From NCBI GenBank assembly GCA_905181875.1, contig CAJIZH010000006.1:124001-188000 (forward strand): a stretch of 64,000 nt of DNA. Reading direction: 5' to 3'. Positions 12,600 through 19,839 of the stretch are shown one piece after another. Within the stretch, counting starts at the first letter, position 1; each line of letters begins with the position of its first letter. The translations under genes were made by a program, and so were the position numbers. The DNA is from Flavobacteriales bacterium UBA6770 (GTDB lineage Bacteria; Bacteroidota; Bacteroidia; Flavobacteriales_G; Salibacteraceae). The notes below the pieces were generated by a model. The model was not told where the DNA came from, ran no database searches, and saw nothing but the letters and a program-made list of their open reading frames with translations.

Positions 12600-12933
12600 A
12601 CTGCTTTAAAAAGCAATTTAGATAGCGTTAGAGAAATCGAGATTTTAAAGGTATCTAAGTTGATCGTAGCCACTTCGTTTTCTAGATTGGACCATAATGC
12701 ACCATTTGATAACGAAGTCCAGCTGGAATCCGTCAATTGGCAGCATCTCCCGTGGCCTTGTTTTCAATGCGTTACACAGTCAGGCTCCATTTTTACCGTG
12801 TATTTGCAATAGCCTACGCAAAAGCCAAAACCATATCCATAATTAACCACCATTGAAGTACTATTAGGAATGATCGTTTCTTCTTTTTGCCGACAAGCAC
12901 AAAACTTAGCAATATGTAGGCTGATATTTTCAT
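12600..12933 (-). pseudogene. Degenerate lipoprotein gene remnant
   Basis: Minus-strand composite: MKISAYILLSF / (frameshift) CACRQKEETIIPNSTSMVVNYGYGFGFCVGYCKYTVKMEPDCVTH*KQGHGRCCQLTDSSWTSLSNGALWSNLENEVATINLDTFK. Confidence 0.6.
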
Positions 12934-12954
12934 TTTTTCGTGTTCCTATTAACT

Positions 12955-13290
12955 TTAGTAGAGCAGGTGCATTTTAGATTCATCCTTCCATTCTGCCTTA
13001 TAGTCCGAGTCTACAAAAAAGATTTTTAAATCTGCTTTGTAATCTGCGTCTACAAAAAACACCTTCTTTTTTGCTTTGTAATCTGCATCGGTAAAAAACC
13101 ATTTACCGTTGTTATCTCCAGCTTTGTAGTCGGCATTCACTTTATACACCAACAAATCCGCTTTATAATCTGCGTCTACCACAAAAACCTTAACGTCGGC
13201 TTTGTAATCCGAATCTACCGAATAGACTTTCTGTGCCATACTATTGACACTAGTTAAAACTAACACTGTAGCTATAATTAAAGTTTTCAT
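12955..13290 (-). CDS. Six-repeat YxVDxDYKAD protein, 7(1) septoil-knot-like domain, exported
   Basis: YSVDSDYKAD/VFVVDADYKAD/VYKVNADYKAG/WFFTDADYKAK/VFFVDADYKAD/IFFVDSDYKAE after signal peptide MKTLIIATVLVLTSVNSMAQ. ATG at 13290. Confidence 0.85.
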   Translation of the reverse strand: MKTLIIATVLVLTSVNSMAQKVYSVDSDYKADVKVFVVDADYKADLLVYKVNADYKAGDNNGKWFFTDADYKAKKKVFFVDADYKADLKIFFVDSDYKAEWKDESKMHLLY

Positions 13291-14556: not shown

Positions 14557-15714
14557 TTAATTGTACTTAATAAGTTTAATAATTTGTCCTTCAATATACA
14601 AGTAATACATGCTTGGTGGAAATTGTGATAAGTCGATTTGCTTGTTATCTCCAGTTAGATATCCCGCCAATAAGCGCTGCCCCATAGGTGAAATAATTTC
14701 GTAATGACCATTTCCATGCATTTTTAAATTAACTACACTTTTCGTTGGATTAGGGTAAACCCGAATGACTGAAAGGTCATTATAAATAACATTTTCTTCC
14801 TTCAATAGTGGATTAACTGCACTTGTATCTTTCTTCGTTGTATCCGTTTCTAATAATTCACATTTGAAATCTTGTTCTAGCTTGGATGCAATGAGAGGGC
14901 TTACTAAAAGTGTGTCTGTTAATAGGGGACAATAACAGTCGTTTTTTTCTACATAAAGTTTCAGCCAAGAGAGCGCTACTTTTCCAACATAACCTCCACC
15001 ACCTTTGGGTGTGTTGGCAACAGAGTGATTGCCATTTGCAATTTCGAATAGTATTTTGTCAGTCGTATTTGGTGTTTGGTTATAATGAATATCTGCATGT
15101 TGCACAGGAGGAGCAGTAGGATCATTTTCTCCACTAAAAATAAGCACAGGACTTTGATGATTGAGCTGGGGATTAGGGAGCCATGGACACAATGCCACAA
15201 CACCAGCAATAGTGGTGTCAAGTACAGCGGCCCTCTGAGCGCCGCCGCCGCCCATAGACCAACCACTTACGGCCAATTGATTCAGGTTAAGTGCTCCATT
15301 AAGCGGAGATAATATTCTAAAATTTTCTTGTTTTATGGTTTCTAAGGCATCCAACAACGCTAAAGCGCGTATTTCCGGAAGATCAAAAGGAGAATTTGTG
15401 CCTATAATAATGGTAACAATTCCGTGAGAAGCATAAAATGGGCCCCATTCTTGAACACTTGAAGGAAGCGCAGTAAATCCAGGTATAATTGCAATACTAG
15501 CGAACGGCGGATTTCCACTTGTAGGGTAGTAGATAGTCGCTCCTAAATAATCAGGACCATTCCTTATTCCATCTGCCTCGGTGAGCGTGGCAACTATAAA
15601 AGCTCCAGGATTAGCAAGACTCTCTATGGTTATGCCATTACATTGGGCTTTAACAATATTGGTAAATAGGGGAGAGATAATAGCAAATAATATTAAAAGG
15701 TAATTTTTTTTCAT
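14557..15714 (-). CDS. PETase/cutinase-like polyester hydrolase (alpha/beta hydrolase) with T9SS type A sorting domain
   Basis: IIPGFTALPSSVQEWGPFYASHG, VSGWSMGGGGAQRAA, ALCPWLP, IFSGENDPTAP, NGNHSVANTP; C-terminal VYPNPTKSVVNL...YYLYIEGQIIKLIKY. Confidence 0.9.
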   Translation of the reverse strand: MKKNYLLILFAIISPLFTNIVKAQCNGITIESLANPGAFIVATLTEADGIRNGPDYLGATIYYPTSGNPPFASIAIIPGFTALPSSVQEWGPFYASHGIVTIIIGTNSPFDLPEIRALALLDALETIKQENFRILSPLNGALNLNQLAVSGWSMGGGGAQRAAVLDTTIAGVVALCPWLPNPQLNHQSPVLIFSGENDPTAPPVQHADIHYNQTPNTTDKILFEIANGNHSVANTPKGGGGYVGKVALSWLKLYVEKNDCYCPLLTDTLLVSPLIASKLEQDFKCELLETDTTKKDTSAVNPLLKEENVIYNDLSVIRVYPNPTKSVVNLKMHGNGHYEIISPMGQRLLAGYLTGDNKQIDLSQFPPSMYYLYIEGQIIKLIKYN

Positions 15715-17971: not shown

Positions 17972-18541
17972 ATGCACACAATTGAACCTTATTACCGTTG
18001 GCGAGAGCTTTATTTAGCAGAGGAAGATGAACGTTCACCTTTTTACGGAAAGGAGTATTCTGAGTTTTACTTTAGCGATACCATTTACGATCATGTTATT
18101 CATCCTCAATGGGATAACATAGGTTCGGAGACACTTTTTCTGAAGCTTATTTATGCCGATTATGACGAAAAATTTGCGATAATCGAACTCATGGGCGAGT
18201 GGAACGATACGCTTCATAATGACATTCAGGCTTTAAAACGAAATATAATCGATCATTTGGTCGACGAAGGAATCAACCGTTTTATACTAATTGGCGAAAA
18301 CGTGCTTAACTTTCACCCTTCAGACGACTCCTACTACGAAGAATGGTTTGAAGACATTGAAGAAGGTTGGATTGCCACCTTGAATTTTAGACAGCATGTG
18401 CTGGAAGATTTTGGTCAAGAAAATATCGACCAGTATTTTGTTACGGGTGGAAAACTGGACGATCTTGTTTGGAGAACCCGATCGCCGAATGAACTGTTTT
18501 TATTGATTGATAATTTAGTCACAAAACGATTGAGCATATGA
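17972..18541 (+). CDS. Conserved hypothetical protein
   Basis: 189 aa ORF; 4-nt ATGA overlap with the downstream ORF; a decayed partial copy lies at 15912. Confidence 0.75.
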   Translation: MHTIEPYYRWRELYLAEEDERSPFYGKEYSEFYFSDTIYDHVIHPQWDNIGSETLFLKLIYADYDEKFAIIELMGEWNDTLHNDIQALKRNIIDHLVDEGINRFILIGENVLNFHPSDDSYYEEWFEDIEEGWIATLNFRQHVLEDFGQENIDQYFVTGGKLDDLVWRTRSPNELFLLIDNLVTKRLSI

Positions 18542-19839
18542 CGCATTTAAAGCGTACAGATTTCGGTAAACTAATTCTGATAATAAGTTGTGTTTTAATT
18601 TCCCTGCAAGGTTTTACGCAAAAACCAGTAAGAGTAGGTAATGTTGATAGCCCAAACGAACCCAGCATTAACATAAACCGACAGAATTCTCAAGAAGTAT
18701 TGTGTGGTGCTAATCTCAATAATCTATACCTAAGTCATGATGGTGGCAAGACTTGGGAAAGCAAAAAAATGACTTCCGATTACGGAGTGCACGGCGATCC
18801 TGTGGTCATCTCAGATAGCTCCGGTCTTTATTACTATTTTCATTTAAGTAATCCAATACTCGGCAGCTGGATCGATAGAATTGTTTGTCAAACCTCTGAA
18901 GATTTCGGCAAAACTTGGTCGACTGGAAGCTACACTGGATTGAATGGTAATAAAGCGCAAGACAAACATTGGGCGGTATATAATGAAGCGACTAACGAAT
19001 TGCATGTTTCATGGACGCAGTTTGATCTCTATGGAAGCAGAAACAAAGATAACCGATCGAATATTATGTATTCTAAGTCTGAGGATAACGGAGTAACGTG
19101 GACAATGGCGAATCAAATCAACCAAGCGTCGGGAGATTGTATCGATAGTTCATTAACTACCGAAGGTGCTGTTCCGACTTTCTCTAATGATGGACGCCTA
19201 TACATTGCTTGGGCGGGCCCTGCGGGTATTCGAATGAATTCGTTCAGTGAAGATAGCTGGTTACCCGTAACTACTTTGGTAGATAGTAATAAAGCAGGTT
19301 GGTCGTACTCGATTCCTGGAGTAAACCGCTGCAACGGAATGCCGGTAACGATTTGCGATCGTTCAAAAGGCGATAACGAAGGAAGAGTTTATGTGAATTG
19401 GAGTGATCAGCGCGAAGGAACGGACAATACTGATATCTTCTTAAAATACAGCGACACTAAAGGCGAACAATGGTCGGAACCAATTCGTATTGGAAAAAGA
19501 GGAGGGAAGAACCACCAGTTTCTTACTTGGATGTCTTTGGATCAAACTACAGGGGCGTTGTACTTGGTGTATTACGACCGAAGCCGTTTTAAGGACAATA
19601 GAACTGATGTGGTTTTAGCAAGGTCTTACGACGGTGGAAAAAGCTTCAAATACAAACGGATAAGACAATCACCCTTTACACCTGTTTCTGGTAAGTTCTT
19701 TGGCGATTACAACAACATTGATGCTCATGATGGAATCGTGCAGCTTGTTTGGACACGCATGGACAATGCCGATACGAGTGTTTGGACTGCTCGATATCAA
19801 GAGCGAAAATGGAGAGTTAAGCGATTGAGGAATAAATAG
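18538..19839 (+). CDS. BNR/Asp-box repeat (sialidase-like beta-propeller) exported protein
   Basis: Five Asp-box-like motifs: LSHDGGKTWE, TSEDFGKTWS, KSEDNGVTWT, YSDTKGEQWS, RSYDGGKSFK. Signal peptide. Confidence 0.8.
   Translation: MTHLKRTDFGKLILIISCVLISLQGFTQKPVRVGNVDSPNEPSININRQNSQEVLCGANLNNLYLSHDGGKTWESKKMTSDYGVHGDPVVISDSSGLYYYFHLSNPILGSWIDRIVCQTSEDFGKTWSTGSYTGLNGNKAQDKHWAVYNEATNELHVSWTQFDLYGSRNKDNRSNIMYSKSEDNGVTWTMANQINQASGDCIDSSLTTEGAVPTFSNDGRLYIAWAGPAGIRMNSFSEDSWLPVTTLVDSNKAGWSYSIPGVNRCNGMPVTICDRSKGDNEGRVYVNWSDQREGTDNTDIFLKYSDTKGEQWSEPIRIGKRGGKNHQFLTWMSLDQTTGALYLVYYDRSRFKDNRTDVVLARSYDGGKSFKYKRIRQSPFTPVSGKFFGDYNNIDAHDGIVQLVWTRMDNADTSVWTARYQERKWRVKRLRNK

Follow-up and report, generated by a model that had tools for sequence, protein, structure and literature searches.

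A DUF6150 protein with the predicted fold of the 7(1)-knotted Q9PR55 in a Flavobacteriales genome, and lockstep change in the loops of its family

The minus strand of the window (the whole 64,000-nucleotide stretch of contig CAJIZH010000006.1 from Flavobacteriales bacterium UBA6770 that we analysed) carries a gene for a six-unit repeat protein of the DUF6150 family, and in this family three loop positions (numbers 5, 6 and 8 in the repeat unit) change in lockstep across all six units of a chain. The family is known already though functionally unexplained, and membership of the window protein is not in itself new; we know of no description of such loop lockstep within one chain for any knotted protein. 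An earlier note, made from the sequence, had read the gene as coding for a probable septoil-knot protein with a signal peptide, and its coordinates (12955–13290) proved correct, the coding strand being the minus strand (Table 1).

The 111-residue ORF reads from ATG 13290 to stop 12955, and the plus strand of the same interval holds four stops in reading. The protein begins with MKTLIIATVLVLTSVNSMA, a probable signal peptide read by eye here as in most relatives, followed by cleavage and by units 1 to 3, QKVYSVDSDYKAD VKVFVVDADYKAD LLVYKVNADYKAG; after the insert DNNG come units 4 to 6, KWFFTDADYKAK KKVFFVDADYKAD LKIFFVDSDYKAE, and the tail. Every one of the six units, and the insert that separates unit 3 from unit 4, is as the earlier note described it. 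The putative signal peptide shows an initial MK, a hydrophobic core and an A-x-A type site; Sec export and signal-peptide cleavage are probable. Unit starts are spaced by 13 residues, with one 16-residue step where the insert precedes an invariant Trp, and a 39-nt period of direct repeats is visible in the DNA of the gene. In an alignment of 101 sequences the G of the insert is nearly invariant with an invariant W after it, and Q1 of the mature part is also nearly invariant.

Table 1. Features of the knot-family gene, of its surroundings in the window, and of a fused relative (locus L016)
Feature	Position	Strand	Basis
Complete gene, 111 aa, DUF6150 / 7(1)-knot family	12955..13290	-	ORF, PF19647 E 2.9e-32, purifying selection
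Signal peptide, probable cleavage NSMA|QKV	13234..13290	-	By eye: MK start; hydrophobic core; Q after an A-x-A type site
Unit 1 VYSVDSDYKAD	13195..13227	-	Model strand E2-5
Unit 2 VFVVDADYKAD	13156..13188	-	Model strand E14-18
Unit 3 VYKVNADYKAG	13117..13149	-	Model strand E27-31
Insert DNNGK, units 3/4 boundary, family-wide	13102..13116	-	101-sequence alignment
Unit 4 WFFTDADYKAK	13069..13101	-	Model strand E44-47
Unit 5 VFFVDADYKAD	13030..13062	-	Model strand E56-60
Unit 6 IFFVDSDYKAE	12991..13023	-	Model strand E69-74
C-terminal tail WKDESKMHLLY, conserved; helix 85-91 of mature protein	12958..12990	-	Alignment and model
Remains of possible small lipoprotein gene, two frames, downstream of knot gene	about 12600-12950	-	By eye
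PETase-like hydrolase with Por secretion tail	14557-15714	-	PF12740 E 2.5e-48
BNR-repeat (sialidase-like) protein, exported-looking	18538-19839	+	
Five-unit fusion, probable membrane helix and SH3-like domain	L016:982-1701	-	

A profile search placed the protein in the family that the earlier note had named: PF19647/DUF6150 scored 111 bits, where the cut-off is 27 (E 2.9e-32), over positions 4–98 of the 98 in the profile. We, like the earlier note, take this family to have since been renamed after the 7(1) septoil knot. The window protein is an ordinary K-type member with DADYKA loops, showing no difference from the family; NCBIfam matches to dUTPase and similar models were far below cut-off and were dropped. 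Against its nearest relative (L003) the synonymous sites are saturated, with pS 0.78 and pN 0.06, and over its nearest relatives overall pS is 0.78–0.96 (again saturated) while pN is 0.06–0.10. Because pS is saturated while pN stays low, this is a living gene under strong purifying selection, and together with the Pfam E-value and the number of relatives the contrast rules against a chance repeat. The genome collection contained at least 499 family loci; of the 80 retained from these, nearly all came from Bacteroidota by title, and the spread in that phylum is patchy: with the window's own genome counted, DUF6150 was found in 14 of 60 relatives (including two of three congeners), in 11 of 35 genomes of the window's family and in 20 of 395 genomes sampled from the whole phylum; in one other family, 46 of 80 genomes had it. 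No relative was found in the plasmid collection, and the phage genome collection returned a match at chance level only. Three distant members (L115, L116 and L117) have conserved cysteines, with FAD replacing the QAD/KAD loops.

AlphaFold modelled the mature protein from 101 sequences with pLDDT 97.4 and pTM 0.86 (a first model from 13 sequences, with pLDDT 48, was discarded), each unit consisting in the model of a strand and then, at the DYKAD-type loop, a helical turn of three residues. In a Foldseek search of this model four chains of Q9PR55, from Ureaplasma urealyticum, ranked first (E 0.02 to 0.16), the best match having E 0.024 and TM 0.33. A second aligner gave Q9PR55 a Z of 6.5, which is middling for that aligner, at 1.9 A over 60 residues, and apart from the Q9PR55 entries 8iwa, 8iwb and 8jrm no solved structure reached a Z of 2. 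The two proteins are 23% identical, and the window protein differs in having a signal peptide and a C-terminal helical tail. Searches of PDB sequences with the protein and with three profiles (A1, A2 and A3) gave no real match, the profiles falling short of Q9PR55 in that library; the sequences are repetitive and divergent. A fold search of BFVD returned only noise. To our knowledge a single 7(1)-knot protein has been solved. The 7(1) knot of Q9PR55 was predicted with a core at 27–83 (PMC9278004) and confirmed crystallographically (PMC13352647; PMC11223836). The earlier note's reading as a septoil-knot protein is thus well supported, by family profile and by the match of the predicted fold to 7(1)-knotted Q9PR55; the 7(1) type itself is probable, with 5(1) possible. 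The knot type is the less certain part because P73136, a Q9PR55 homologue of 112 aa with 48% identity and the same predicted fold class, differs in having a predicted 5(1) knot (PMC9278004), and AlphaFold is capable of misjudging topology (PMC10672856). That the window protein too would be 5(1) is also compatible with the extent of the match, model residues 1–82 aligning with 60 residues of Q9PR55 and 22 model residues being left over, but the whole of Q9PR55 chain 25–84, the 7(1) core included, has equivalents in the model, and we consider a 5(1) knot somewhat doubtful. The Knotted Solenoid fold is likewise a small knotted bacterial repeat protein but is 3(1), a dimeric beta-solenoid and largely found in Caulobacteraceae (PMC13123833); it was absent from the Foldseek matches of the window model.

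When the 11-residue core of the unit is numbered 0–10 (V0 F1 V2 V3 D4 A5 D6 Y7 K8 A9 D10), the lockstep is seen at positions 5, 6 and 8, where among 91 representatives identity among the units within one protein was 0.78, 0.66 and 0.92, and identity between proteins at the equal unit 0.25, 0.25 and 0.38 (permutation maxima 0.28, 0.27 and 0.42). At strand positions 0 and 2 the relation is reversed, with 0.30 and 0.19 within and 0.79 and 0.92 between proteins. The lockstep persisted after the representatives were thinned to 19. The majority loop motifs were of 33 different kinds among the 91 representatives, charge changes (K, Q, D, E) included, and protein pairs that are similar outside the loops mostly differed in either no loop or six; at position 8, among pairs 80–95% alike outside the loops, 165 agreed in every unit and 186 differed in all six. 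For instance, L027 and L047, which agree at 94% outside the loops, have D versus E at position 6 in all six units, and tandem paralogues can differ in the same way, YESQA six times adjoining DAEYKA six times at L035 and YKSDA six times adjoining mostly DADYKA at L031. On a tree of 62 columns with the loop columns left out, for which branch counts are rough, 11 branches carried at position 8 an identical change shared by five or six units, and none did so at positions 0–3.

The likely cause of the lockstep is that selection on the protein favours six equivalent loops, since silent sites carry little trace of gene conversion at the loop positions. That the loops were instead homogenised in the DNA, by gene conversion or unequal crossing-over between units, has in its favour the 39-nt direct repeats and the fact that L018 (a second copy in genome G027) and L086 have lost exactly one 13-residue unit, which shows that units are able to recombine. 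Conversion of whole units is excluded because the strand residues stay unit-specific, and conversion confined to the loops is unlikely, because at positions 5, 6, 8 and 9 the units share codons about as often as when synonymous codons are shuffled (z 1.0, -1.7, 1.6 and 0.0), codons being scrambled to chance level at 5, 6 and 9; the codon excess at Tyr position 7 (z 6.3) makes an old conversion event possible, and as an account of the lockstep we regard homogenisation as quite unlikely. The loops would then have to match one another because they act or pack together, and the pattern suggests that they form one symmetric working surface. Our best guess is a hyperstable scaffold with six equivalent loops: the protein would be exported by Sec, lose its signal peptide and fold in the periplasm into a torus knot, most likely 7(1), giving a small scaffold resistant to unfolding and proteases, on which six chemically equivalent loops (x-x-Y-K-A) would make one multivalent surface toward a partner in the envelope or outside the cell. 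The strands and C-terminal tail, fixed unit by unit, would hold the knot, and the loops would be the variable part that tunes function. For this reading of an exported DUF6150 protein, with the Q9PR55 fold and displaying six equivalent loops, our confidence is evenly balanced; its binding role is deduced from the loop pattern alone. Against it count that we know of no ligand or partner, that no gene neighbour is common to the family, the codon excess at Tyr position 7, a fused relative that lacks a signal peptide (L016), and the middling fold scores. Q9PR55 is reportedly stable against urea and a bacterial unfoldase-protease, in a 2024 JBC paper.

A purely structural lock, in which adjacent loops pack in the knot so that one change demands the same in the others, is nearly as likely as a scaffold with binding loops; there would be no six-fold binding surface, and the protein would work through another part or as a stable filler. 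The loop positions shift in unison without homogenisation of silent sites, and in the model the loops are short helices that recur in register, both as packing would have it, but the number of majority motifs, with their charge changes, is much variety for pure packing, and we hold this explanation tentatively. Rather unlikely is a recognition surface proper, matching itself and switching fast, in which one loop code would be written six times and carried by bacteria, phages and integrative elements; tandem paralogues would hold different codes, and knotting would keep the six equivalent loops rigid in a hostile extracellular setting. As an alternative of another kind, the gene may be an accessory of mobile elements or phages, e.g., a periplasmic exclusion factor, with the chromosomal copy in the window a stranded remnant of cargo. 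The patchy presence in the window's family is consistent with this, as are relatives on viral contigs (L120, L121, L122, L139, L140, L142–L144 and others), with a baseplate wedge gene near the family gene in L142, thymidylate synthase near it in L139, and matches to thymidylate synthase and HNH endonuclease families among the genes of L119–L122. These IMG/VR contigs are predictions; several are convincing as phages because of such neighbours. In addition, in a genome of the window's genus (G001) the knot gene lies near an integrase and a resolvase whose counterparts in G027, from another, neighbouring genus, match them with 93% and 91% DNA identity, the knot genes being 87% identical. These two knot genes are Q-type. 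The gene in the window is K-type and has its nearest relative, at 80% identity, in L003 from another genus; it is possible that the window gene arrived by transfer. Against a mobile accessory, element repeats are absent from the vicinity of the window gene, none of the adjacent genes codes for a recombinase, PADLOC gave no match, and many copies sit among housekeeping genes; we judge this origin unlikely.

The family supplies hundreds of natural variants, exact deletions from six units to five, tandem paralogues and phage copies, and therefore both how knot complexity arose and what it is used for can be put to the test. The six-loop lockstep points to where the function may be located, and it is worth following, as are the deletions of a single unit and the copies in phages and elements.

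In the neighbourhood, the PETase-like hydrolase with its Por secretion tail is a candidate secreted polyesterase. The decayed lipoprotein gene of the earlier note is plausible by eye, there being pieces in two frames, but none of the pieces had a Pfam match. A conserved genomic partner was sought across the family loci and none was found; the frequent neighbours, an MscS channel (10 loci), a DASS transporter and PnuC, look lineage-specific, and the window has no neighbours in common with the loci of relatives beyond similarity of sorting tails.

Several relatives differ in how the gene is arranged or accompanied. At L016 of genome G059 five units without a signal peptide share one chain with a probable membrane helix and an SH3-like domain, the latter scoring below its own cut-off; judging from this fusion, export is not essential to the domain, and genome G504 perhaps has something similar. 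On the viral contigs L140, L142, L143 and L144 the knot-family gene lies beside phage structural genes (baseplate wedge). In L151 (7573–9572) a 100-nt repeat occurs three times at intervals of about 950 nt, one copy lying just upstream of the knot gene; these element repeats are absent from the window. The repeat core is also found at the end of a 330-aa ORF, recombinase-like by eye and without a Pfam match, that adjoins the knot gene in L154, and the arrangement resembles either a cassette array or a regulatory or attachment site held in common. Finally, one genome has three copies (L022, L024 and L025) with 98% DNA identity over the gene; upstream of L024 and L025 lie many direct repeats that cross-match, and a 975-bp stretch is identical in L022 and L024.
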